Source: an uncultured Eubacteriales bacterium (GTDB lineage Bacteria > Bacillota > Clostridia > Oscillospirales > Acutalibacteraceae). Taken from it: DNA of 38,072 nucleotides. The translations under genes were made by a program, and so were the position numbers. Under the pieces are notes generated by a model, which worked only from the letters and a program-made list of their open reading frames with translations, ran no database searches and was not told the origin of the DNA. Shown here piece after piece: positions 23,480-36,090 of the stretch (position 1 is its first letter; the number at the start of each line of letters is the position of its first letter). The DNA lies in contig ONCY01000006.1 of NCBI GenBank assembly GCA_900316435.1, positions 1-38,072 of the forward strand. The letters run 5' to 3'.

Positions 23480-24745
23480 ATGAATCTTTATTTATTTGTA
23501 GCCATCATCGCGCTGGTGTGTTTGCTCGGCTTTTTTAACGAAAAAGTAACAAAGCTCACATATGAGATCTCACTGATGCTGTTCTCGGTCTTCGTCGGCG
23601 GAGCGGTACTTTTGACCGCCTCTGTTTTTGACGGGACTGACGCCGCAACGATGCTTAAACAAACGCAGCTCATAAATATCGAGAGCTTTTTGCTGGAGGG
23701 CGTTCTGTGCTTTATGCTTTTCGCAGGCTCATGCCACATGAAGCTGTCGGACTTCAAAGCTCAGGCGCGTCAGGTAACCGTGCTTGCCTTTGTCTGCACA
23801 CTGCTTGGTGCTGGGTTTTACGGAGCGCTCTTCTTTGGCGCGTCCGTTCTGCTGAATCTGAACCTTTCGCTGCCCGTATGCCTGATGTTCGGAAGTATTA
23901 TCGCGCCCACGGACCCGATCGCCGCAACAAGCATTTTAAGCAAATTCGGTCTGCCTAAGAATATTTCCTTTTTGATTCAGGGTGAATCTCTATTTAATGA
24001 CGGCGTCGGCGTTGCGCTTTTCGTCTGTTTTTCCGGCATAGCTACTGCGACTTCTTCGGAGGGCTTCTTTATTATTATGCTGAGAGAAATAATAGGCGCG
24101 GTATTGGTGGGAGCGGCGGCAACTGTACTGTGTTTTTTGCTGTTCCGCTTTACAAAAAGCAAAACGCTGGGGATATTCATCAGCCTGTTAGCGGTTTCGC
24201 TTTCCTATGCAGTGTGCGAAGCCTGCGGTTTTTCCGGAGCAATAGCTTCTGTTGTATGCGGTATTCTGTTCTCGGCGCTGCGCTCACGCTTTTCAAGGGA
24301 AGAACGCGAAGACGCCGAAACCTTTGATTCATTTTGGGAAACGCTTGATTCCCTTTTCAACTCCATCCTTTATGTTATGCTGGGCTTGTCGTTTGTGCGC
24401 ATCCTGCAGATGGAACACGTTATCATCCTCTCGCTTATTGCGATTGCGGCAAACCTCATCGCCCGCTTCTGCAGTCTTAGTATTTCGTCGCTGATAATGG
24501 GAAAGATACCCGACGGCTATGACAGATTGAATTTCGTCAAGCTGCTGACATGGGGCGGTCTGCGCGGAGGCCTGTCGGTAGCTCTTGCAATAAGCACTCA
24601 CGAAATGCTGCCGGATAAAACTTACTATATAATTATCGGCGGAACATACGCCATAGTTTTCTTCACGACTGTGATACAGGGGTTGACCATGAAGCCCGCT
24701 TATAACAGAATCAACGGTTCACTGAATCAACGCAAAACAAAATAA
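23480..24745 (+). CDS. CPA1-type Na+(K+)/H+ antiporter
   Basis: A 421-aa cation:proton antiporter of the NhaP/CPA1 family, used for pH and sodium homeostasis at the cell membrane. About 12 hydrophobic segments are visible. Signature elements are APTDPIAATSIL near residue 144 and the ion-binding QGESLFNDGVGVALFV near residue 168, with the Asn-Asp pair. WGGLRGGLSVALA lies in TM11 at ~364. There is no cytoplasmic TrkA/NTPase tail; the C-terminus is short and basic. An AAGGA site lies upstream of ATG 23480. The coupling ion cannot be read from the sequence. A hairpin terminator follows. Confidence 0.92.
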   Translation: MNLYLFVAIIALVCLLGFFNEKVTKLTYEISLMLFSVFVGGAVLLTASVFDGTDAATMLKQTQLINIESFLLEGVLCFMLFAGSCHMKLSDFKAQARQVTVLAFVCTLLGAGFYGALFFGASVLLNLNLSLPVCLMFGSIIAPTDPIAATSILSKFGLPKNISFLIQGESLFNDGVGVALFVCFSGIATATSSEGFFIIMLREIIGAVLVGAAATVLCFLLFRFTKSKTLGIFISLLAVSLSYAVCEACGFSGAIASVVCGILFSALRSRFSREEREDAETFDSFWETLDSLFNSILYVMLGLSFVRILQMEHVIILSLIAIAANLIARFCSLSISSLIMGKIPDGYDRLNFVKLLTWGGLRGGLSVALAISTHEMLPDKTYYIIIGGTYAIVFFTTVIQGLTMKPAYNRINGSLNQRKTK

Positions 24746-24886: not shown

Positions 24887-24915
24887 TTGCAATTGTATTT
24901 GGGTTAGGGTATAAT
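24887..24915 (+). promoter_or_regulatory. Promoter of the NRPS operon
   Basis: TTGCAA (24887-24892), 17-bp spacer, perfect TATAAT (24910-24915), 39 bp before the NRPS ATG. It is the only good promoter seen before the five-gene cluster. Confidence 0.75.
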
Positions 24916-24916
24916 A

Positions 24917-24929
24917 TTGTTTGAAACAA
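24917..24929. promoter_or_regulatory. Palindrome over the NRPS transcription start (possible operator)
   Basis: TTGTTT-G-AAACAA is a perfect 6+1+6 inverted repeat one base after the -10 box, covering the expected +1 site near 24922. This is an ideal place for a repressor. The cognate regulator is not known. Confidence 0.45.
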
Positions 24930-24954
24930 CCTCTTTTTTGAAAGGAATGTTAGT

Positions 24955-27900
24955 ATGAGCGCAGTTATTGAAAAAATCATTTCCAACGTAAACCAATACC
25001 CCGATCATGTCGTAATCGTCGATCAGGGCGAAGGCAACTTCTTCACCTACAGCGGCTTTGACACCTACGCTCGCAAAATCGCCGCCAAGCTTCAAAGGCT
25101 CGGTGTAACGCGCAGAAGCTTTGTCACGATTGAGCTTCCGCGAAACAAGGAGTACATCGCCTCCATGTACGCGGTCTGGATGGTCGGAGCGGCGTTTGCT
25201 CCGCTCTCCCCTACGTACCCCGCTGAGCGTTTGGAGTATATCCGCAGCGACTGCGACGCAAAGGTTGTAATTGATGAAAAGTTCCTGCGCAATATTGAAA
25301 GCGAGGATCCGATTACCGATATCATACTGCCCGAGCCCCAAGATCCTTCGCTGCTGATTTACACCTCGGGCTCAACCGGAAAGCCCAAGGGCGTGCTGCA
25401 CTCACACGCAAGCATAAATGATTCTATAGTCAGATACTCAGATTACGCCAATCCTCCGCGCGGATTCCGCGCCGCTCTGGGCGCTCCGTTTACATTCGTG
25501 GCGTCTGTACAGGGCGTTTTCTCTCCGCTCTGTTCGTGCCTGACAGCTTATCTTATGCCGTATCAGGCAATGCGCGACCCTGTGCTTCTCGCCGACTATA
25601 TTTATGAAAACAAAATCAACCGCACCTTTATCAGCCCCAAAATGCTCAAGGTATTCAAGCCGAGGGGCGATTCGCTCAAGGTCGTATTCACAGGAAGCGA
25701 GCGTGTAAGCGACACCTACAGCGATGACTTTGAAATCATTGTCAGCTACGGCCAGACCGAGTCGGCAGGCGCGGTAATGATGTTCAAAATCGACAAAAAG
25801 TATCACAATACCCCAATAGGCAAACCGATAGGCGATATCCGCGTCCATATTCTTGACGAAAGCGGAAACGAGGCTGATGAAGGCGAGCTGTGCCTTGCGG
25901 GAATTTTTGCCGACTGTTACCTCAACCTGCCCGAACAGAGCGCAAAAACCTTTACCGACAACCCCTTTGCCGAAGAGGACGGCTATGACAAGCTCCCGAA
26001 AACCGGCGACATAGTAAAGCGCGGCGAGGGCGGCAACATAATCTATCTTAACCGCAGAGACTGGATGGTAAAAATCAACGGTCAGCGTGTAGAGCCGGGC
26101 GAAATTGAAACTATCATCAAGCAGGCTGACGGCGTGCTTGACGCGGCAATCAAGGACTTTAAAAATCAATACGGACAGGTATATCTTGTCGCTTATTATG
26201 TTGAAAAAGAGCCTGTATCGGCTGAGGATTTAAAAGAGGCTATCTCCCAAAAGCTTCCGCCCTATATGATTCCCGCTTTCTTTGTCAAGCTCGATAAGCT
26301 GCCCGTAAACGCCAACGGCAAGCTCGACCGCAGCGCACTCACACCACCCGAAGCAGGAAACTACAAAAATGAGTATATCGCACCCGAAACCGACATGCAA
26401 AAGGTGCTTTGCGAAGCGTTTGAACAGGTGCTCGGCATGGAGAACGTCGGCATTGACGATGATTTCTTCGCGCTGGGCGGCGACTCCATCAAGTGCGCTA
26501 TGGTATCTGAAAAATGCGGCGTTTATCACATTTCAACCGCCGACATATTTGCCGGAAAGACGCCGCGCATGATTGAGCGCCGGCTTATTCAAAAGGCTTC
26601 GGCAAAAAAACGTCCCGAAAAGAAAAACAAGGTCAGGGTTTATCCGCTTACTCCTTCCGAGCGCGGCATGTACCTTGAACAAAAGCTGAACGAGGACTCA
26701 ACCGTATACAACCTCAACATCGCCGCAATCATTAAGGGAGCCGATGCTGAGAAAATTAAATCCGCACTAACAAGCGTTTTTAAGGCTCACGAGGCGTTTA
26801 CCTCCTATTACGGAGAAGAAAACGGCCTGCCTGTGCGCTATTTGTCCGATAAGCTCCCCGACATCGAAGAAAAATCCGCCGCCTCACGCGAGGAGGTTAT
26901 TCGTCTTATCGACAACTACAATACTCCGTTTGATTTGAACGCCGCGATTCCCGTCAGACCTACTCTTTATTCGGTATCAGACGGCAGCGTAATTCTGCAT
27001 ATGGCTATTCACCACATCGCTTTCGACGGCGGTTCGGCAAAGACCTTTGTCAAAGAGCTGATTGACGCTCTCGAAGGCAAAGATGTTCCATCGGCTGAAA
27101 TCGACCTCAGCGACCTCTATATGGACAGCCTTGAAGAAAAATACGAAAGCGGAATGGCTTTTTATAAGGAGCTGTTTGCCGACGGCGTGCCTGTCAACGA
27201 AATGCCCGTCAAGGGCAAGCGCCCCAAGGTGCACCCGCTCTCGGATAAAGAAATCCGTTTCCTTTATGACAACGCTCAGCTCAAATCAATTGACAACACG
27301 GCGCGCCGCTTCGGCGTGACAGAGTTTGAGCTGATATTCTCCGCCGTTTCGATGACGCTGGGCAAATATACGGCGTCCGAGGACGTTGTGCTGGGCATTC
27401 CCACCAACATGCGCCCCAACGGCGCCGACAACGTAATCGGAATGTTTGTAAACACCGCGCCTGTACGCGTCAAGCCCAAACGCGATTTAGAAATCAGCGC
27501 CTTTATTAATTCCGTCAGCGAATCGGTGCGCAACGCGACCTACGGCTCTTCCCTTCCGTTTGAGGACGTTGTTGCCGAGTTCGTAAAGCAGCGCGACGAA
27601 TCGCGCAATCCGATTTTTGACGTCAGCGTAAACTTTATGTGGAACCCGCCCGCTTATGACAATAACGGTCTGAGCGTTGAGATGTACTCGCCCCTGCAGA
27701 AGATGAGCCGCGATATCGGTATAGTTATCCGCAAGGGAGCCGCAGGTCTGCAATTTATGATCCAATATTCCTCAGAGCTGTTTGAGGACGCTGTTATCGA
27801 GGGCTTTATTGAGCAGTTCAAGACCGCTCTCGCTATGCTTGGCAGCGGCGTCAAAACCGTAAGAGAAGCGTTGATTCTGCCCGAAAGCCAGCAGCAAATG

Positions 27901-30888
27901 CTTGAATGCTTCAAAACAGAAGCCAAAGCCGAGGTGCCCGTTACCTTATTGCATAAGCTGTTTGAAAAGAGCGCTGAGGAAAACGCCGAAAAAACCGCTC
28001 TGGTTGCCAAGGACGCCGTACTGAGCTACCGCGAGCTCAACGAGAGGGCGAATATCGTCGCGCATAATCTTATCAATAGAGGAATCACAGTCGGCGACAG
28101 CGTAGCGCTGCTGCTGCCAAGAGAGAGCTGCTTCTTCAGCTGTATGTTCGGCGTCAACAAGGCGGGAGCGGCGTTTATCCCCTGCGACCCGCAGTATCCT
28201 GCCGACAGAATCAATCATATTATCGAGGACAGTGAGGCCTCATTTATCATCACCACCAACGACAAGCTTTCCGATTACCCAGCGGAAAAGGCAATAGACG
28301 TAACCGATATTCTGACAGGAACCGATACCTCTGACCCCGACGTTGAAATGAGCGACCGCGAGCTAAGCTACATGATTTACACCTCGGGCTCCACAGGAAA
28401 GCCAAAGGGCGTAATGCTGCGCCACAAGGGCATATGCAACTATCTTATGCCGCACCCTGCAAACTCACACATTTACTTTATCAAAAACAATGTATCTTCT
28501 TATTTATCAGTAACCACCATATCGTTTGACATGTCCTTTAAGGAGCATACGGCGGCGTTCTGCAACGGAAAGACCTTGGTTTTTGCCGCCGAGGACGAAA
28601 TGAACGACCCGCGCGCGCTGGCTGCGCTTATGGAAAAATACAGCGTTGACTGCATAAACGCCACTCCGTCAAGACTGCAGCAGTACATGGAATACGCTCC
28701 GTTTAATTCGGCGCTGTCCAAATGCAGGCTGGTAATGTCGGGCGGCGAGGGATATCCGATTTCGCTGAGAGACGCAATAAGAAAATGCTCGCCCGACATA
28801 AAAATCATCAACACCTACGGTCCCACCGAAATCACCGTTTCCTGCAACGCGGCAGACCTTACAAACGCGGAATATGTCAGCGTAGGCAGACCGCTTCTCA
28901 ACTATGACGAGGTAATCGTTGACAAATTCGGCGATACCGCTCCTTACGGCGTCATCGGCGAGCTGTATATAGGCGGCGTCGGTGTGGCAAAGGGCTACAA
29001 AAACCTGCCCGACAAAACCGCCGCGGCGTTTGTTGAATATAACGGTCAGCGCATGTACCGCTCAGGCGACTACGCCAAGTGGGACAAGTACGGCAATGTG
29101 CTGATTTTAGGCAGACTTGACAATCAGGTTAAGCTCAGAGGCCTGAGAATTGAGCTGGGCGAAATTGAAGGCCTGATGGCTGAGCAGCCGCATATCAAAA
29201 AGGTCGCGGTTGTTATCCGCAAGCTCAACGGCCAGGACAACCTCTGCGCCTACTTCACCGCCGATGAGGAGATAAACATCGACGCGATGCGCGAGGAGCT
29301 GAAAAAGCACCTGACTCATTACATGGTTCCCACAGCTTACCTGCAAATGAACGAAATGCCGGTTACCGCCAACGGCAAAACCGACATTAAGCGTCTGCCC
29401 GAGCCTGTGCCCGTCAGTATGGGCGAGTATGTTGCTCCCGTCAACAAGACAGAGGAGTTCTTCTGCGAGTCATTCAGAAAGACGCTGAAGCTTGAGCGCG
29501 TCGGCGCAACGGATGATTTCTTTGAAATAGGCGGAACCTCACTTGTAGTTACCGCCGTGGTGCTCGACGCGTCGGAAAACGGATTCCCCATCACCTATGG
29601 CGACGTATTTAAATATACCACTCCGCGCGCGCTTGCCGAGCTGTTTAAAGACGGCGAGGTAAACGACACGGGCAAGCTGTTTGATTTTGAGGGCTACGAT
29701 TACACAAAGATAAACGAACTGCTTTCAAAAAATACCGTAGACGCCTTCCGAGCGGGAGAAAAACGTCCTCTCGGCAACATTATGATCACAGGCGCCGGCG
29801 GCTTTATGGGCGCGCATCTGCTGGCTGAATATCTGAAACGCGAAAACGGCAAAGCTTACTGCGTTATCCGCAAGGGCAAGTTCGGTACCGCAAGAGAACG
29901 CCTTGAAAACCTGATGTTCTACTACTTCGGCTCCGATTTGGAGAAAGAGTTTGCCGAGCGCGTAGAGGTGCTCAACGGCGACGTGACCGATTACAAATCA
30001 TTTGAGCCGCTTGAGAGCCTGCCGATTGACACGGTATTCAACTGCGCTGCAAATGTAAAGCACTTTTCAAACGGCACGGACATTGAGGATATCAATGTCG
30101 GCGGCGCGGTCAACTGCATTAAGCTCTGTCAGAAAATCGGCGCAAGAATGATCCACTTCTCCACGGTATCTGTATCGGGTACCACCGAAGATGTGTCAAA
30201 GCTCAGCCGCCGTGAGCTCGATGAGCAGACTCTCTATTTCGGCCAGAGCCTCGACAATAAATACACCTCATCAAAGCTGATGGGCGAGCGCGAGGTGTTA
30301 GCGGCTGCCGCCGACGGGCTTGACGCAAAGGTTATCCGCGTAGGCACACTTGCCGCGCGCGAATCCGACGGCGAATTCCAGATAAACTTCCTTACAAACA
30401 ACTTCATGGGACGTCTGCGCTCCTACAGTCTGCTGGGGTGCTTCCCGTATAATATGATTGAAAATCAGGTATGCATGGGGCCTATCGACCGTTCATGTGA
30501 GGCGTTTTTAAAGCTTGCCGCTACCCCCAAGGAGTGCTGCATGTTCAACGCCGTCAATAACCATACGCTTCCGCTTGGCGATATTATACGCCAGATGAAC
30601 GAAAACGGCAGCAGCATCCGCTTTGTCGAGTATGACGAGTTTGCCGCCGCTCTCCACGGGGCGCAAAAGGATCCCGATAAGGCAGCAATACTCTCAAGCA
30701 TGACGGCGTATATGAACACCGCTCACGGCAAAAAGATAACGGCGCTTCCGTTCTCCGCCCACTATACCACCCAGATACTTGCGCGCATGGGCTTCTTCTG
30801 GAACGCAAGCACCGAAAGATATGTAGATGACTTTATCAACGTTCTGCGCGGTTTCCTGTTCTTCCGCAAGGATAACCTGAAACGATAA
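24955..30888 (+). CDS. Two-module NRPS with reductive release: A-T-C-A-T-R
   Basis: Non-ribosomal peptide synthetase, 1977 aa. In order: adenylation A1 (LIYTSGSTGKPKG ~131, SYGQTESAG, GQRVEPGEIE, NANGKLDR); carrier T1 (ALGGDSI, Ser ~511); condensation C (HHIAFDG ~686); A2 (MIYTSGSTGKPKG ~1140, NTYGPTE, GRLDNQVKLRG); T2 (EIGGTSL, Ser ~1529); NAD(P)-dependent thioester reductase R (TGAGGFMGAH ~1609, FSTVSVSG, YTSSK ~1768). The organisation is that of pyrazinone/peptide-aldehyde synthetases such as AusA: two building blocks joined and released as an aldehyde. In A1 the FDxS-type A4 motif reads FVASVQ, so the Asp that binds the alpha-amino group is Val (~182), while A2 keeps it (FDMSFK, ~1192). 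No phosphopantetheinyl transferase lies nearby. AGGA precedes the ATG. First gene of the operon. Confidence 0.93.
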   Translation: MSAVIEKIISNVNQYPDHVVIVDQGEGNFFTYSGFDTYARKIAAKLQRLGVTRRSFVTIELPRNKEYIASMYAVWMVGAAFAPLSPTYPAERLEYIRSDCDAKVVIDEKFLRNIESEDPITDIILPEPQDPSLLIYTSGSTGKPKGVLHSHASINDSIVRYSDYANPPRGFRAALGAPFTFVASVQGVFSPLCSCLTAYLMPYQAMRDPVLLADYIYENKINRTFISPKMLKVFKPRGDSLKVVFTGSERVSDTYSDDFEIIVSYGQTESAGAVMMFKIDKKYHNTPIGKPIGDIRVHILDESGNEADEGELCLAGIFADCYLNLPEQSAKTFTDNPFAEEDGYDKLPKTGDIVKRGEGGNIIYLNRRDWMVKINGQRVEPGEIETIIKQADGVLDAAIKDFKNQYGQVYLVAYYVEKEPVSAEDLKEAISQKLPPYMIPAFFVKLDKLPVNANGKLDRSALTPPEAGNYKNEYIAPETDMQKVLCEAFEQVLGMENVGIDDDFFALGGDSIKCAMVSEKCGVYHISTADIFAGKTPRMIERRLIQKASAKKRPEKKNKVRVYPLTPSERGMYLEQKLNEDSTVYNLNIAAIIKGADAEKIKSALTSVFKAHEAFTSYYGEENGLPVRYLSDKLPDIEEKSAASREEVIRLIDNYNTPFDLNAAIPVRPTLYSVSDGSVILHMAIHHIAFDGGSAKTFVKELIDALEGKDVPSAEIDLSDLYMDSLEEKYESGMAFYKELFADGVPVNEMPVKGKRPKVHPLSDKEIRFLYDNAQLKSIDNTARRFGVTEFELIFSAVSMTLGKYTASEDVVLGIPTNMRPNGADNVIGMFVNTAPVRVKPKRDLEISAFINSVSESVRNATYGSSLPFEDVVAEFVKQRDESRNPIFDVSVNFMWNPPAYDNNGLSVEMYSPLQKMSRDIGIVIRKGAAGLQFMIQYSSELFEDAVIEGFIEQFKTALAMLGSGVKTVREALILPESQQQMLECFKTEAKAEVPVTLLHKLFEKSAEENAEKTALVAKDAVLSYRELNERANIVAHNLINRGITVGDSVALLLPRESCFFSCMFGVNKAGAAFIPCDPQYPADRINHIIEDSEASFIITTNDKLSDYPAEKAIDVTDILTGTDTSDPDVEMSDRELSYMIYTSGSTGKPKGVMLRHKGICNYLMPHPANSHIYFIKNNVSSYLSVTTISFDMSFKEHTAAFCNGKTLVFAAEDEMNDPRALAALMEKYSVDCINATPSRLQQYMEYAPFNSALSKCRLVMSGGEGYPISLRDAIRKCSPDIKIINTYGPTEITVSCNAADLTNAEYVSVGRPLLNYDEVIVDKFGDTAPYGVIGELYIGGVGVAKGYKNLPDKTAAAFVEYNGQRMYRSGDYAKWDKYGNVLILGRLDNQVKLRGLRIELGEIEGLMAEQPHIKKVAVVIRKLNGQDNLCAYFTADEEINIDAMREELKKHLTHYMVPTAYLQMNEMPVTANGKTDIKRLPEPVPVSMGEYVAPVNKTEEFFCESFRKTLKLERVGATDDFFEIGGTSLVVTAVVLDASENGFPITYGDVFKYTTPRALAELFKDGEVNDTGKLFDFEGYDYTKINELLSKNTVDAFRAGEKRPLGNIMITGAGGFMGAHLLAEYLKRENGKAYCVIRKGKFGTARERLENLMFYYFGSDLEKEFAERVEVLNGDVTDYKSFEPLESLPIDTVFNCAANVKHFSNGTDIEDINVGGAVNCIKLCQKIGARMIHFSTVSVSGTTEDVSKLSRRELDEQTLYFGQSLDNKYTSSKLMGEREVLAAAADGLDAKVIRVGTLAARESDGEFQINFLTNNFMGRLRSYSLLGCFPYNMIENQVCMGPIDRSCEAFLKLAATPKECCMFNAVNNHTLPLGDIIRQMNENGSSIRFVEYDEFAAALHGAQKDPDKAAILSSMTAYMNTAHGKKITALPFSAHYTTQILARMGFFWNASTERYVDDFINVLRGFLFFRKDNLKR

Positions 30889-30900
30889 GGGGGCAAAAAA

Positions 30901-32637
30901 ATGAAACGAAGCGGAATTCTTCTCAACGAAAAATACCGCAGTCTTCTTGTTGCGACTTTGGCAATGACTGCCTCCACCTACCTTGCAGGAATAGTAGACG
31001 GCATCATGGTAGGCAACATTTTAGGTACTGTCGAGCTGTATGCCGTTAACCTGACGGCATGTATCATCTTTCTACGCAGTATCCCCATAGCCATATCGAC
31101 CTACGGCGGCAACACGCTTTCGATTATCAGAAAAAGCAAGCGCGACCAAAAAGGCGCAGACACGGTATTTACCACATCTTTCTGGCTCGGCATACTCTCC
31201 ACAGTGGTCATTTCCGCTCTGGGTATAGCTTTTATTGTCCCCTCTGCAAATCTGCTCTCACAGGGGAACGATCAGATCACCGACCTGCTTATTCAATACC
31301 TTTTGCCGCTGTGGCTGCATACGCCGCTCGTCGCCGCAGTCAACCAAACGGCGGCTTATGCCCGTACCGACGGAATGCGCAAGCTGGCAACGGCGCTGCC
31401 CATAGTCGCCAATGTTATAAACCTGTCCTGCGATTATCTTTATATGGCCGTTTTCGGTTGGGGAATCGCGGGAGCAAGCTGGGCTACGCTTACAGGCTAC
31501 GCGGTCGGAACCGTTCTGACGCTGATATATTTCAAGTCCGGGAAGCGCACTGTTCACTTCACTAAGGAAGCGCTCAGCCGTCTAAAGGAGCTGGGCAAAA
31601 TCATCAGCATCGGTCTGCCCTCCGCGCTAATCTATGTGTGCAATTTCCTGCGCCTGTTCTTTACAAACGCAATTATCCTGTCCGCTACCGGCGTAGCGGG
31701 AGGAAAGATAGCGTCGGTTTCGTTCTCGCTCAACAGCCTTGCGTTTATCTTTGTTGAAGGGGCCTCGATGACGCTGCTCCCCATACTGGGCGCGCTTTAC
31801 GGTGAAAAGGACACCAACGGGCAAAAGCTCACGCTTCGGTACGGTATGCTCTTTACGCTTGGGCTCTCAACCATAGTGCTTATTATTTCCGAGCTGCTGC
31901 CAGTTCAGCTCGCGTCGCTTTACGGACTGACTGACCCGGCAATAACAGAAGTTTTTTCCGTCACATTCCGAATCTTCTCAATCAACGTGCCGATTCTTGC
32001 TGTCATATATGTCATGAGGTCGTTTTTCCAGGCGACAAATCAAAAGGGGCTTGCCAACCTTCTCGTTATGCTTGACGGCGTTATCACCATAATCCCGCTT
32101 ATGTACTGGTTCTCAAACTACGACATCTACTGGCTTTGGGTGTCATTCCCTGTTTCAAAGCTTTTAACGGTTATCATCACTTTTGCGGCAATGGTGATAA
32201 GCAAAAAGGTCAAGAAAAAGAAAAATCTCCTCGGCATCGAGGAGCAGGACGGCACCGCGCTGGACTTTTCCATCAAAAACGAGGTCTCCGAGGCAATCAA
32301 AGCAAGCGAGGAAGCAATGGCTTTCTGCAAAAAGCAGAATGTTCCGGAGAACGCGTGGAACGCGGTGGGCGTTGCGGTAGAGGAATTGTGCCACAATATA
32401 GCGGTATATGCAAAATCAGAATCATCAAGCATGGTCGATGTATGCGTGCGCGTGTTTGACGACAAGGTAAACGTGCGGCTCAGAGACAGCGGCCCCGAAT
32501 TTGACCCCACCGACTATATCGACAACAGCGGCAAAAAAATCACAGGACTTAAGCTTGTAAGGCTGCTCAGTTCCTTGGTCAACTACAACCGCATTCTCGG
32601 CTTTAACGTGACGAATGTAACCGTTTCTTATACATAA
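30901..32637 (+). CDS. MATE-family exporter fused to an RsbW-like HATPase domain
   Basis: A 578-aa fusion. Residues ~1-435 form a 12-helix MATE multidrug/toxin exporter (opening YRSLLVATLAMTASTYLAGI and DGIMVGNILG). After a Lys-rich linker, residues ~450-578 are a GHKL/HATPase_c_2 domain like the anti-sigma kinases RsbW and SpoIIAB, with an N-box (VAVEELCHNIAVYA, ~487-500), RDSGPEFDP (~525) and a glycine-poor lid (GKKITGLKLVRLL). It starts 12 bp after the NRPS with a GGGGG site, so it is the likely exporter of the product. The kinase-like domain could phosphorylate the STAS protein at the end of the operon. One continuous reading frame; no sign of frameshift. Confidence 0.88.
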   Translation: MKRSGILLNEKYRSLLVATLAMTASTYLAGIVDGIMVGNILGTVELYAVNLTACIIFLRSIPIAISTYGGNTLSIIRKSKRDQKGADTVFTTSFWLGILSTVVISALGIAFIVPSANLLSQGNDQITDLLIQYLLPLWLHTPLVAAVNQTAAYARTDGMRKLATALPIVANVINLSCDYLYMAVFGWGIAGASWATLTGYAVGTVLTLIYFKSGKRTVHFTKEALSRLKELGKIISIGLPSALIYVCNFLRLFFTNAIILSATGVAGGKIASVSFSLNSLAFIFVEGASMTLLPILGALYGEKDTNGQKLTLRYGMLFTLGLSTIVLIISELLPVQLASLYGLTDPAITEVFSVTFRIFSINVPILAVIYVMRSFFQATNQKGLANLLVMLDGVITIIPLMYWFSNYDIYWLWVSFPVSKLLTVIITFAAMVISKKVKKKKNLLGIEEQDGTALDFSIKNEVSEAIKASEEAMAFCKKQNVPENAWNAVGVAVEELCHNIAVYAKSESSSMVDVCVRVFDDKVNVRLRDSGPEFDPTDYIDNSGKKITGLKLVRLLSSLVNYNRILGFNVTNVTVSYT

Positions 32638-32641
32638 GATT

Positions 32642-34447
32642 ATGAAAAAACCAAAAACCGATTTTACTTTCAGGCGCCTTTCGCCCGACGCCGTAAAAAT
32701 GCTGCGCGAAACCGAAAGGCGCACAAATTTCATCTATACGCTCGTGTTAATGGCCGTTGATCTCGGCATAATACTGCACGCGCTTTTTCACGGGCATTCG
32801 GCTTTTATACGAGCTTTGTCAAACCTGCCTGTTTTTTTGACAACGGCGGCTATCATAGTAAACATCATCCTGCGCAAACGCACGCTGCCTGTTATCAAAT
32901 ATATCAACTTTGCGGTTATGCTGATTGCCGTTCTTGTTCTGTGTCTGGAACAGGATACGCTGTACATTTTGTTGTTTGTATTTCCTATCTTCATCAGTGT
33001 TTTTTACTTCAATCCACGCTATACCGTTATTACTTCGGCGGTTTCCTGGGTTATGCTTCAAATCGTGCTTTTCAACGGAATAAGCCTTAACGCCGCAAAA
33101 GTTGACGAGCTGTCGTATTCCGATGTTCCTTCGCTGATTTCAGACGCCTTTGACTTTTCAAAAATAAACGAGCTGTCGTTATGGGAATACAGGATCACTT
33201 CGCTTATTATCATCTCGGTTATTATGGGCGTGTGCGTGTATGTGTCCTTCAGCGGCAGAAGATTCTACCAAAAACAAGCTGAGCTTATCCGCAAAAACGC
33301 CTCCACTCAGATGGAGCTGAATTTAGCGCAGGGAATCCAAAAAGGAATTCTCGCGGGCAATTTTCCCGACACAAAATGCTGCGGCGTTTACGCCGACATG
33401 ACCCCTGCAGACGAGGTCGGCGGCGATTTTTACGACTGGTTCCCTGTTGATGAAACCCATCTGGCAATTGCGGTCGGCGACGTTTCGGGGCACGGCATAC
33501 CCGCTGCGATGTTTATGGCGCTGACAAAAACGCTTATCAAGGTGTATGCTCAGGGTAAGTTTTCACCCGAAAAGGTGCTGGAGCGCACAAACCGCTATCT
33601 GGTTCGGTCAAACCCCGAAAAGTTTTTTGTTACGGCATGGCTTGGGGTTCTGGATTTGTCTACAGGCAGCCTCTCGTACGCTAACGCGGGGCATAATTAT
33701 CCTGTCATCATCCGCGGCAACTCAGATCCCGAGTTTCTTAAGACAAAACCAAATTTCGTGCTTGGCAGGAAAAGGCTTGTAAAATATATGGAACACCGTG
33801 TAAAACTCACGCCCGGCGACAAGCTTGTTCTTTACACCGACGGCGTTACCGAAGCCAAGTCGCCCGAAGGCTTGTTTTTTGAGGACGACAGACTGCTCTC
33901 GGTTCTTAAGGCGGCGAAAAATATGAATCAAATTCAGATTGTGAAGGCTGTAAGAGAAAGCCTTGACGAGTTTGAGCACGGCACGGATCACTACGACGAC
34001 GCTACGATCCTCGCGCTGTATTATAAAGCAAAGCATACGCCGCCCGCACCCCAAAGCAAGGTGTTCCTTCTGAATAAAAACACCTTTGACGACGCCCTTG
34101 ACTATATAAAAGGATGCTGCGTCAAGGCTGGCTGCGACGACATGACGGTGAACAGTATAACGGTATCGTCATCGGAGATCCTTGCGAACATCGACTCTTA
34201 CGCCTATGAGGACGGCGGCGATGTTGAAATATTCTCAAAGTGCATACGCCGCCGAATGATAGTAGAGTTCAAGGACAGCGGCAGAGCCTTTAATCCGCTG
34301 CTTGTCAGCGAGCCCGACACAACGCTTAAGCTGAGCGAACGCAAGCCCGGAGGCTTGGGCGTTTTCATTGTGAAAAAGCTGATGACAGACGTAAGCTATG
34401 AGTACCGCGACGGTCACAATATTCTAAGAATCGAAAAGGAGTTTTAG
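32642..34447 (+). CDS. SpoIIE/RsbU-type PP2C phosphatase with N-terminal membrane region and C-terminal HATPase
   Basis: A 601-aa protein. Five or six hydrophobic segments fill ~35-200. A short helical linker (ELIRKNASTQMELNLAQGIQ) leads to a PPM serine phosphatase domain (~225-460) with all metal-site motifs: DEVGGDFYDW (~259), VGDVSGHGIPAAMF, YTDGVTEA and DDATILAL. The last ~130 residues are a second RsbW-like ATPase domain (EILANIDSYAY ~511, KDSGRAFNP ~543, KPGGLGVFIVKKL ~568) with a clear G2 box. In partner switching, such phosphatases dephosphorylate STAS proteins and HATPases rephosphorylate them. It starts 4 bp after the MATE-fusion stop without a good ribosome binding site, so it is translationally coupled. 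Confidence 0.9.
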   Translation: MKKPKTDFTFRRLSPDAVKMLRETERRTNFIYTLVLMAVDLGIILHALFHGHSAFIRALSNLPVFLTTAAIIVNIILRKRTLPVIKYINFAVMLIAVLVLCLEQDTLYILLFVFPIFISVFYFNPRYTVITSAVSWVMLQIVLFNGISLNAAKVDELSYSDVPSLISDAFDFSKINELSLWEYRITSLIIISVIMGVCVYVSFSGRRFYQKQAELIRKNASTQMELNLAQGIQKGILAGNFPDTKCCGVYADMTPADEVGGDFYDWFPVDETHLAIAVGDVSGHGIPAAMFMALTKTLIKVYAQGKFSPEKVLERTNRYLVRSNPEKFFVTAWLGVLDLSTGSLSYANAGHNYPVIIRGNSDPEFLKTKPNFVLGRKRLVKYMEHRVKLTPGDKLVLYTDGVTEAKSPEGLFFEDDRLLSVLKAAKNMNQIQIVKAVRESLDEFEHGTDHYDDATILALYYKAKHTPPAPQSKVFLLNKNTFDDALDYIKGCCVKAGCDDMTVNSITVSSSEILANIDSYAYEDGGDVEIFSKCIRRRMIVEFKDSGRAFNPLLVSEPDTTLKLSERKPGGLGVFIVKKLMTDVSYEYRDGHNILRIEKEF

Positions 34448-34456
34448 GAGGGATAT

Positions 34457-35629
34457 ATGAATCAGGTAAAAATATTGATAGCAGGCGATTTTCTCCCAAT
34501 GCCCTGCAACTACGAACTGTTTTCAAACGGAGATACCAGGGCGCTGTTCGGCGACAAGCTGTGCTCGCTTTTTGCCTCGGCGGACTGCCGCGTATGCAAT
34601 TTTGAGGGCTGCTTTACCGACAGCGACAGCCCGATTGAAAAGACGGGCCCAAATATCAAAGCGCCTGTATCCACAATCAGCGCCGTAAAAAAGCTCGGCA
34701 TAGATTACGCTACGCTCGGCAACACCCATTCAATGGACTACGGAAAGCAGGGCTATATTGACACCTGCAAAACGCTCAGCGACAACGGCATAGACTATTT
34801 CGGCTGGGGCGACAGCGCTTCCTCAATAAAAACCTGTCAGGAACTTTTAATAAACGGTATCAATATCACGCTATACAACGTTACCGAGCGGTTTGACAAC
34901 GCTCCCGGAGATGATTACCCGGGCGTAAACCTCTACGACGAATACCGCGTGTGCCGCGAGCTGAGCGGTCTTAAAGAACGGTGCGACTATTTAATCGTGT
35001 TCTATCACGGCGGAATTGAGGGCACCCATTACAACAGCGAAACAATGCGCAGACGGTTCCACCGAATGGCAGATAACGGCGCGGATATCGTTATATCACA
35101 GCACACCCACGCTATAGGAGAAGAGGAGTATTACAACGGAGCTTATTTCCTGTACGGTCAGGGCAATTTCTGCTTCCATTTCAGAAAGGATGTTACACCG
35201 CTTCTCAGCGAAGGTCTGGTGCTTGAGGCTGATTTTACAAAGGACGGCTTTACCGTAAAGCCGCACCGCGTACTGCGCACAGAACAGGGCTGCGTTTACG
35301 ACGAGGCTCAGGATTTAAGCGGTTTTTATGAACGCAGCAAAAAGCACAGCAAGCTGCTTGCTGGCGACGCTGAGGCAAAAGCTGAGTTTGAACAAAACTT
35401 CGGCAAGGACGCTAAAAACTGGCTGCTGCAGTTCCTTCTGACCTTCCGGGGAATTGATCCCGAGGTCGCCGAAAAGCGTAAGGAGCTGTCCCCCAAAGAA
35501 TTGTGCGATTATCTTCTCTCGCTTTATCCAAGGCCGTATTTAAATGCAATTTTGACATTTCTTCGCAACGAGGAACTCAACGAAATCGGACAACAGATCT
35601 TCAGCGATTTGCTGAAAGAAACAAAATAA
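34457..35629 (+). CDS. CapA family (poly-gamma-glutamate synthesis type) metallophosphatase-fold protein
   Basis: A 390-aa CapA/PgsA-like protein with a calcineurin-like fold: ILIAGDFLPM (metal Asp), CNFEGCFT, ATLGNTHSMDYG (Asn-His), FYHGGIEGTHYNS, ISQHTHAIGEEEYYNGAYFLYGQGNFCF. Known CapA proteins act at the membrane in capsule or poly-gamma-glutamate export, usually with an N-terminal helix; here there is no signal peptide or helix, so it is probably cytoplasmic. AGGAGG lies 5 bases before ATG 34457, 9 bp after the phosphatase gene. Its part in the cluster is unknown; a hydrolase or ligase acting on the NRPS product, or an editing enzyme, is speculation. Confidence 0.85.
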   Translation: MNQVKILIAGDFLPMPCNYELFSNGDTRALFGDKLCSLFASADCRVCNFEGCFTDSDSPIEKTGPNIKAPVSTISAVKKLGIDYATLGNTHSMDYGKQGYIDTCKTLSDNGIDYFGWGDSASSIKTCQELLINGINITLYNVTERFDNAPGDDYPGVNLYDEYRVCRELSGLKERCDYLIVFYHGGIEGTHYNSETMRRRFHRMADNGADIVISQHTHAIGEEEYYNGAYFLYGQGNFCFHFRKDVTPLLSEGLVLEADFTKDGFTVKPHRVLRTEQGCVYDEAQDLSGFYERSKKHSKLLAGDAEAKAEFEQNFGKDAKNWLLQFLLTFRGIDPEVAEKRKELSPKELCDYLLSLYPRPYLNAILTFLRNEELNEIGQQIFSDLLKETK

Positions 35630-35644
35630 AAAGGAGACACTACA

Positions 35645-35941
35645 ATGATTATTAAATGTTCTGAAAACAGCACAGGAGCGGTTATTGCGCCCGAGGGCAA
35701 GCTCGATCACGTCACAGTTGCCGAGTTTGAGGAAAAAGTAACGGAGCTTGGAGCAAGAAACGACTCTCTTACGCTCGATATGGCAGATGTGGAATACGTC
35801 AGCTCAGCGGCGCTCAGAGCAATTCTGAACGCAAACGACCTTATGGAAAACAAGGGCGGGCTAAAGCTTGTAAACGTCAACCAAAAAGTAATGGAAATTC
35901 TGAGGATTACGGGCTTTTCAGATTATCTTAATATTCAGTAA
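35645..35941 (+). CDS. STAS-domain anti-sigma factor antagonist
   Basis: A 98-aa single STAS domain of the SpoIIAA/RsbV type: IAPEGKLDHVTVAEFEEKV, LTLDMADVEYVSSAALRAIL, then GGLKLVNVNQKVMEIL and the C-terminal helix. The phosphorylatable serine is expected at Ser54 in VSSAAL; the residue before the pair is Val where SpoIIAA has Asp. AGGAG lies 8 bases before the ATG. It is the last gene of the NRPS operon, 15 bp after the CapA-like gene and before the terminator at 36027-36052. It is the natural substrate of the two HATPase domains and the phosphatase upstream. No sigma factor gene is in the window. Confidence 0.92.
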   Translation: MIIKCSENSTGAVIAPEGKLDHVTVAEFEEKVTELGARNDSLTLDMADVEYVSSAALRAILNANDLMENKGGLKLVNVNQKVMEILRITGFSDYLNIQ

Positions 35942-36026
35942 AACGTTCAAATGAGGCGGAGCCTGAGCGAATACCCCAAGCGTATTGTATCTGCAGCCAC
36001 CCGTATTTATACAAAGACTAACAAAC

Positions 36027-36052
36027 AGCAACAACGGGTTGCTTTTCATTTT
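36027..36052 (+). terminator. Terminator of the NRPS operon
   Basis: AGCAAC (36027-36032) and GTTGCT (36038-36043) with an AACGG loop, followed by TTTCATTTTG. A 6-bp stem with a T-rich tail is modest, but it is correctly placed between the STAS gene and the next promoter. Confidence 0.6.
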
Positions 36053-36062
36053 GTGGCGCATG

Positions 36063-36071
36063 TGCTACTAT
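36063..36071 (+). promoter_or_regulatory. Extended -10 promoter of the XRE regulator
   Basis: TGCTACTAT: a TG-N extended -10 element (36063-36071), with a weak TTTTCA about 17 bp upstream, 19 bp before ATG 36091. Confidence 0.45.
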
Positions 36072-36090
36072 TTAATCAGGAGGTGTTATT

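Follow-up and report, generated by a model that had tools for sequence, protein, structure and literature searches.

The 38,072-nucleotide contig ONCY01000006.1 of an uncultured rumen bacterium of the Eubacteriales (family Acutalibacteraceae; assembly GCA_900316435.1), referred to here as the window, contains a row of five genes in which a nonribosomal peptide synthetase (NRPS) is accompanied by a transporter and by proteins of the partner-switching type. The window is an entire contig (C66) of the draft genome, which comprises 2.09 Mb in 161 contigs. All five genes lie on the forward strand between positions 24955 and 35941 and are separated by gaps of 12, 4, 9, and 15 bp, an arrangement that was described in the first-pass annotation of this DNA and that matches the coordinates of the open reading frames (ORFs) exactly. 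As assigned with Pfam, the first gene (24955–30888) encodes a 1977-residue NRPS with two AMP-binding domains, two PP-binding stretches, one Condensation domain, and one NAD_binding_4 domain, arranged as adenylation, thiolation, condensation, adenylation, thiolation, and reductase (A-T-C-A-T-R). The second gene (30901–32637) encodes a 578-residue MATE exporter (MatE match of 67.8 bits, cut-off 24.9) with a C-terminal HATPase_c_2 tail, and the third (32642–34447) a 601-residue protein composed of an N-terminal part, a PP2C (SpoIIE) domain, and an intact HATPase_c_2 domain. A 390-residue CapA/PGA_cap protein (34457–35629) and a 98-residue STAS protein with a serine in the motif YVSSAALR (35645–35941) complete the row.

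The promoter proposed ahead of the synthetase gene, TTGCAA-17-TATAAT at 24887–24915 on the forward strand, is the highest-scoring sigma-70-like match (10/12) between positions 24000 and 38072, a region with 22 such matches compared with 12.7 (standard deviation 3.2) in shuffles. TGACA-like and TATAAT/TATGATA-like boxes are also found upstream of many CapA-bearing relatives, in an alignment judged by eye and uncounted. The terminator proposed at 36027–36052 fares less well: a sequence scan finds a weak terminator-like stem of six pairs at 36027–36043 on the forward strand, but the predicted fold of 35995–36075 omits that stem and is not stabler than shuffles (z −0.80; 38 of 200 shuffles as stable), and the candidate was dropped.

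The NAD_binding_4 match at residues 1611–1831 places an R domain at the end of the synthetase, and a domain of this family is predicted to release an aldehyde (or an alcohol). The aureusimine synthetase AusA has the domain order A-T-C-A-T-R. It resembles the window NRPS both in this order and in supplying its top NCBIfam model (NF047350); it differs in that the window NRPS scores 997.6 bits where the curated cut-off of the model is 2500. In the first A domain (24955–26370), the aspartate at position 235, a position that we take, with its meaning for A domains, from the GrsA rule, is replaced in all 44 distinct relatives (by V in 41 and I in 3), and the specificity code of the second A domain is near-invariant among them. 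By such rules, absence of this aspartate would hint at an acyl group or another non-α-amino acid as residue 1. Pyrazinone formation requires a free α-amine on residue 1. Of the aldehyde or pyrazinone-like product envisaged earlier, the aldehyde agrees with the R domain and the pyrazinone is doubtful; an acyl-aminoaldehyde may be the likelier product.

Switch Proteins and the HATPase Tail of the Exporter

The earlier assignment of the STAS, PP2C, and HATPase proteins to a partner-switching set is borne out by the STAS serine, the PP2C metal ligands, and the intact HATPase motifs, all of which are present and co-conserved. The serine, the second S of YVSSAALR, is kept in all 109 distinct STAS sequences of the loci collected from related genomes (designated by L numbers). 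The PP2C aspartates of the motifs GGDFYDW and GDVSGHG are invariant (86/86), and three other metal-ligand positions are kept in 83, 84, and 83 of 86. In sequence searches of the PDB, the nearest match to the STAS protein is RsbV (6m36), with SpoIIAA (1th8) among the near ones, and the nearest match to the PP2C-HATPase is Rv1364c (3ke6; matched stretch 32–297 of 376). The HATPase domains linked to PP2C retain the lid motif GG.G, the N-box asparagine, and the D residue in 58 of 58 sequences each, and the domain looks like a working kinase. Stand-alone HATPases number 40, of which 30 have GG.G; eight of the 40 sit in ORFs of more than 220 residues and were set apart from the 32 shorter ones. Among the latter, 29 have GG.G, two of the remaining three resemble pieces of exporter tails, and the last, linked to STAS in L150, reads AGLG. 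The part of the PP2C-HATPase ahead of PP2C is about 270 residues long in the window and ranges from 45 to 611 residues, measured from the preceding stop, across the loci; in L176, it includes a 5TMR-LYT sensor domain. This variability is as expected if the protein responds to different input signals.

The tail of the exporter differs from the PP2C-linked domain. In the AlphaFold model of the MATE-HATPase (41 sequences; mean pLDDT 86.7, pTM 0.78), an α/β tail follows the helical part, and a stretch of low confidence at residues ∼531–560 falls where the lid is expected. A Foldseek search with this model returns the MATE transporter 6fhz as the top match (E 1.1e-14, TMt 0.86), and all of the 50 listed matches but one, an entry without a telling name, are MATE, MurJ, or WzxE transporters; because these matches are transporters, the search is uninformative on the tail. 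In a sequence search of the PDB, the tail matches RsbW at an E-value of only 0.046, with unrelated proteins next. The paired lid glycines are lost in the window, where the sequence reads TGLKL, and the aligned G.G occurs in none of the 112 exporter tails. This loss is not a local shift of the alignment, since any G.G in that stretch is found in just one of the 112 tails (L111). The pairing of two HATPase domains in the first-pass annotation therefore needs qualification, as the PP2C-linked domain is intact and the MATE-linked domain is not its equivalent. With no paired lid glycines, and with additional motif residues missing in some clades, the MATE-linked HATPase looks like a receiver rather than a normal kinase.

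Linkage of Synthetase, Exporter, and Switch Genes

Relatives of the locus were first gathered by means of the MATE-HATPase, and the nearest had NRPS genes alongside. The kin obtained from a scan of named genomes are mostly metagenome-assembled genomes labelled Ruminococcus, Clostridiales, or Clostridia, and many are rumen-derived. Among the 80 exporter-found named loci, short contigs included, NRPS domains are present in 75 and switch genes in 61; they include Pseudobutyrivibrio ACV-2 (L095), Ruminococcus bromii 5AMG (L143), two Acetobacterium records, and one Anaerovorax record. The five loci with no NRPS domain include that of Acetobacterium tundrae (L137). Because exporter-based sampling is biased, genomes of the genus were also searched with the R domain only. 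An R-domain match is present in 84 of 150 genus genomes versus 9 of 245 genomes from the whole order (own genome included; a stricter E-value was used in the order). From these, 77 R-centred regions were taken, 69 within the genus and eight outside it, and profiles derived from the loci were run against all six frames to map their domains.

A C domain is visible in 58 of the 69 genus NRPSs, and 30 of these are flanked by at least 3 kb on both sides. In 27 of the 30 fully flanked loci, a MATE-HATPase lies within 3 kb, and within 6 kb a STAS gene is present in 28, a PP2C gene in 25, and an RsbW-like HATPase, alone or fused to PP2C, in 28. Two weak HATPase matches in long proteins, one in L186 (21 bits, 435 residues) and one, outside the genus, in L232 (16.5 bits, 633 residues), are probably ordinary histidine kinases and were left uncounted. 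STAS, PP2C, and MATE-HATPase occur all together in 24 of the 30 loci. By comparison, among 14 genus windows of 19.6 kb that served as controls, STAS, PP2C, or HATPase genes are found in none and a plain MATE gene in one, and none of three A-R enzymes that lack a C domain and are flanked by at least 2 kb on both sides has switch or MATE-HATPase genes nearby. The genes are arranged in 14 patterns of position and orientation among the 30 loci (11 among the 27 with a MATE-HATPase), and the synthetases fall into the classes A-C-A-R (14 loci), C-A-C-A-R (10), A-C-A-C-A-R (5), and C-A-R (1). The association of synthetase, exporter, and switch genes across genomes is strong, and of the co-conservation for which the first-pass annotation proposed to look, this much is found in the genus, with varying gene order. 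Searches of open PMC papers yielded no account of an NRPS-linked partner switch or of a MATE-HATPase fusion, and the available portion of a rumen gene-cluster survey uses neither the word sigma nor the word transport (PMC8241843).

The order NRPS > MATE > PP2C > CapA > STAS is limited, in the gene maps, to window-like loci, and CapA, confined to a sub-clade, was rejected as a core part. The CapA protein weakly matches the lasso-peptide epimerase MslH (32.3 bits, cut-off 700). In L176, L178, and L185, a CapA gene is located upstream of the NRPS instead.

A HATPase-like domain is also found on a second kind of transporter, at the N terminus of SDF symporters. These fusions are located in the bacterium's own genome on contig C79 (L152:5477–7093), near STAS, PP2C, and HATPase genes; in L132 (903–2540) and L133, in the same row as a MATE-HATPase and an NRPS; in L228 (6435–8009), outside the genus; and in L264, which carries a fourth kind. 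L228 combines the symporter with STAS, a C-A-R NRPS, PP2C, and HATPase in one row, and together with L226 and L227, also from other families of the order, it has an R-domain NRPS with PP2C, HATPase, and STAS and no MATE-HATPase. The N-terminal domain of the L228 symporter was found by the HATPase profile (E 2.5e-6 for the N-terminal piece alone) and receives no Pfam name at E-values up to 1. In a single comparison with hhalign, a profile of four SDF N termini matches seven HATPases with a probability of 97.8 and an E-value of 1.2e-12, and in the alignment their ATP motifs are largely lost. Such loss is as expected of a receiver, and of any other degenerate domain as well. A structure model of the fusion, from two near-identical sequences, is uninformative (mean pLDDT 35.1). 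Near relatives of the L152 symporter are rare at this reach, being present in three of 197 genomes of the order, own genome included.

Several further arrangements were observed. L100 (9685–13718) contains STAS, MATE-HATPase, PP2C-HATPase, and STAS genes with no NRPS domain in the 21.7 kb fetched, and in L137 (11824–13212) a HATPase_c_2 domain is followed on one chain by a weak GNAT-like match, adjoining the MATE-HATPase. Beside PP2C and/or STAS, a second NRPS type, A-T-C, is present on contig C47 of the own genome (L151) and in L057, L247, L252, and L258; a carboxylesterase follows it in L151 and L057, and L057, L247, L252, and L258 also contain a MATE-HATPase of a more distant family. In addition, the draft genome has a second copy of the module (C157:1–6430, L039) with 90 and 88% DNA identity to the window and 99.9 and 98.2% identity to RUG074 (L070). 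Given the 6.83% estimated contamination of the draft, this copy may come from a sister species.

Output of the Switch

As had been pointed out for the window, no Sigma70_r2 match is present on the contig. The own genome has 11 such matches, none of them on contigs C66, C157, or C47, and in 12 relatives none of the matches listed (of 159) is within 10 kb of an NRPS R domain, the nearest being ∼10 kb away (G342). A sigma factor was thus considered as the output and no linked gene was found, although an unlinked target could still serve. Since no linked sigma factor is seen, the earlier suggestion that the transporter itself is the output of the switch is plausible. In R. bromii, for which two genome records are treated as one because their contig C35 and that of L143 have equal length (174,684) and the same location, one of two STAS matches is beside the NRPS and the other is beside a HATPase and a sigma match; two of the three HATPase_c_2 matches over the cut-off are in the NRPS locus, and two PP2C genes lie on another contig. 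In Pseudobutyrivibrio ACV-2, the exporter and NRPS are apart from a STAS/HATPase/PP2C group. With switch genes unlinked in this way, the switch would act in trans if these parts work together.

The operon, in the interpretation that we favor, would make, export, and post-translationally control a small NRPS-derived aldehyde. The variable region ahead of PP2C would let the PP2C-HATPase sense a signal, and this protein would set the phosphorylation state of STAS, with its HATPase domain acting as the kinase and its PP2C domain as the phosphatase. The degenerate tail of the MATE exporter would no longer be a normal kinase yet would still recognize STAS, and one form of STAS would bind this tail and gate export. 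The recurrence of similar gene sets in many related gut bacteria points to on–off control of the exporter by the switch; phosphotransfer, binding of STAS to the tail, and export gating with its sign are steps that we infer from sequence. We put the probability that a PP2C-HATPase/STAS switch gates MATE export through the degenerate tail in an aldehyde-making operon at about one half.

Several observations weigh against this interpretation. One lid glycine is kept in 86 of the 112 exporter tails, and the E, N, and D residues of the ATP motifs are kept in 102, 89, and 106, so that the tails may bind ATP and may even retain some kinase activity. Loss of E, N, D, or the G1 glycine is found in 19 of 78 tails with a STAS gene in the fetched locus versus 8 of 34 without; with shares this similar, absence of a local STAS does not predict tail degeneracy, a result that favors neither a receiver nor a kinase. 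Among the fully flanked loci, L176 and L212 lack a MATE-HATPase while keeping switch genes, L185 lacks both, and L186 has a MATE-HATPase but neither STAS nor PP2C. Neither MATE-HATPase nor switch genes are found in L169, whose short side is 2.2 kb, and no switch gene is nearby in L095 and L121–L129, some of which are on short contigs. Six more distant MATE-HATPases (L251, L256, L257, and L260–L262) have no NRPS or switch gene in the stretch fetched, and the NRPS-R loci outside the genus contain a MATE-HATPase in 0 of 8 cases and switch genes in 3 of 8. Furthermore, the loci share descent, so the 30 are not 30 independent events.

The retention of E, N, and D in most tails would also suit an exporter that is the sensor rather than the target, in which the tail is altered by transport or binding of the product and then, together with PP2C and STAS, passes the signal to an anti-sigma factor encoded elsewhere or to some other regulator, thereby controlling transcription of the cluster. 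The 11 sigma matches in the own genome could act in trans, and the PP2C genes of R. bromii and the STAS/HATPase/PP2C group of Pseudobutyrivibrio ACV-2 illustrate that switch genes can be unlinked. The paired lid glycines, however, are missing in 111 of 112 tails, no sigma match among those listed in the 12 relatives is within 10 kb of an R domain, and R. bromii has one STAS protein besides that beside its sigma match. We regard a sensing exporter as unlikely, though the most serious of the alternatives. It is more improbable still that the synthetase is what the switch acts on, either by regulating it or by bringing it to the membrane beside the exporter, with the HATPase tail serving as a docking platform and no gating. 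The presence of the switch and the NRPS without a MATE-HATPase in L226–L228 and in L176 would fit this arrangement, but the row in L228 has a tailed transporter too, namely the SDF symporter, and in the 21.7 kb of L100 no NRPS domain accompanies the MATE-HATPase, STAS, and PP2C-HATPase genes; in L226 and L227, no tailed transporter is present among the neighbors tested. Simple co-inheritance of neighboring genes with no functional coupling of switch and exporter, for which the restriction of all loci to related Clostridia and the possible movement of clusters as blocks (those of Lachnospiraceae are nested among those of Ruminococcus) might speak, is very improbable given that the linkage survives rearranged gene order and several NRPS classes, that switch genes are absent from the control windows, and that exporter and tail form one protein chain.

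The proposed gating of MATE export may have a counterpart in the SDF fusions. HATPases that lost their kinase motifs could have become STAS receivers on at least two unrelated transporters, MATE and SDF, giving a general class of phosphoswitch-gated transporters in which partner switching controls transport and not transcription and of which NRPS-aldehyde operons are the main instance; we advance this generalization tentatively and consider it somewhat doubtful.

Relation to Known Systems

Partner switching is known mainly for the control of sigma factors. The operon is reminiscent of the RsbU/RsbV/RsbW and SpoIIE/SpoIIAA/SpoIIAB systems, with which it shares a STAS serine, a HATPase kinase, and a PP2C phosphatase; it differs in that no linked sigma factor is seen and in that one of its HATPases forms the tail of an exporter, with the paired lid glycines missing. 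Rv1364c of Mycobacterium tuberculosis, the top PDB match of the PP2C-HATPase, differs from the window protein in that its chain also includes PAS and STAS domains, and it has been described as regulating a sigma factor. SiaC of Pseudomonas aeruginosa is a STAS-like phosphoprotein. As the switch partner in the SiaABCD system, it acts, according to the available portion of the account, on the diguanylate cyclase SiaD (PMC8457831), so that the output is an effector enzyme, as opposed to a transporter. In Vibrio fischeri, the available text describes SypE as one protein that is both serine kinase and phosphatase of the STAS protein SypA, in a system that controls biofilm formation and in which the target of SypA is unknown and is not a known sigma factor (PMC8256260). 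The joint kinase and phosphatase recalls the PP2C-HATPase, and that portion of the text mentions no transporter fusion (PMC8256260). SspH of Streptomyces is, in the text available, a HATPase-domain protein that affects biosynthetic gene clusters and requires its N and D residues; it differs in being single-domain and pleiotropic and in acting on biosynthetic gene expression, and it is not fused to a transporter (PMC9137472).

NRPS clusters for peptide aldehydes are known from gut Clostridia, and the ruminopeptin (rup) products of Ruminococcus bromii are, in the portion of a review available, dipeptide aldehydes (PMC12327764). The R. bromii genome has a single R-domain match, located in L143 and preceded by HATPase > STAS > MATE-HATPase; L143 is presumably the published rup cluster. 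Similar to the window, its NRPS ends in an R domain, although the domain order is C-A-C-A-R. The same portion of the review states that isolation of the predicted rup products from cultures failed (PMC12327764). If the proposed gating is correct, one possible reason for this failure would be that the product can exit only after the switch has been set. A receiver on a transporter would then be a new kind of partner-switching output, and it would explain why exporters carry HATPase tails. It would be relevant, too, to the timing of reactive peptide-aldehyde release by gut and rumen bacteria.

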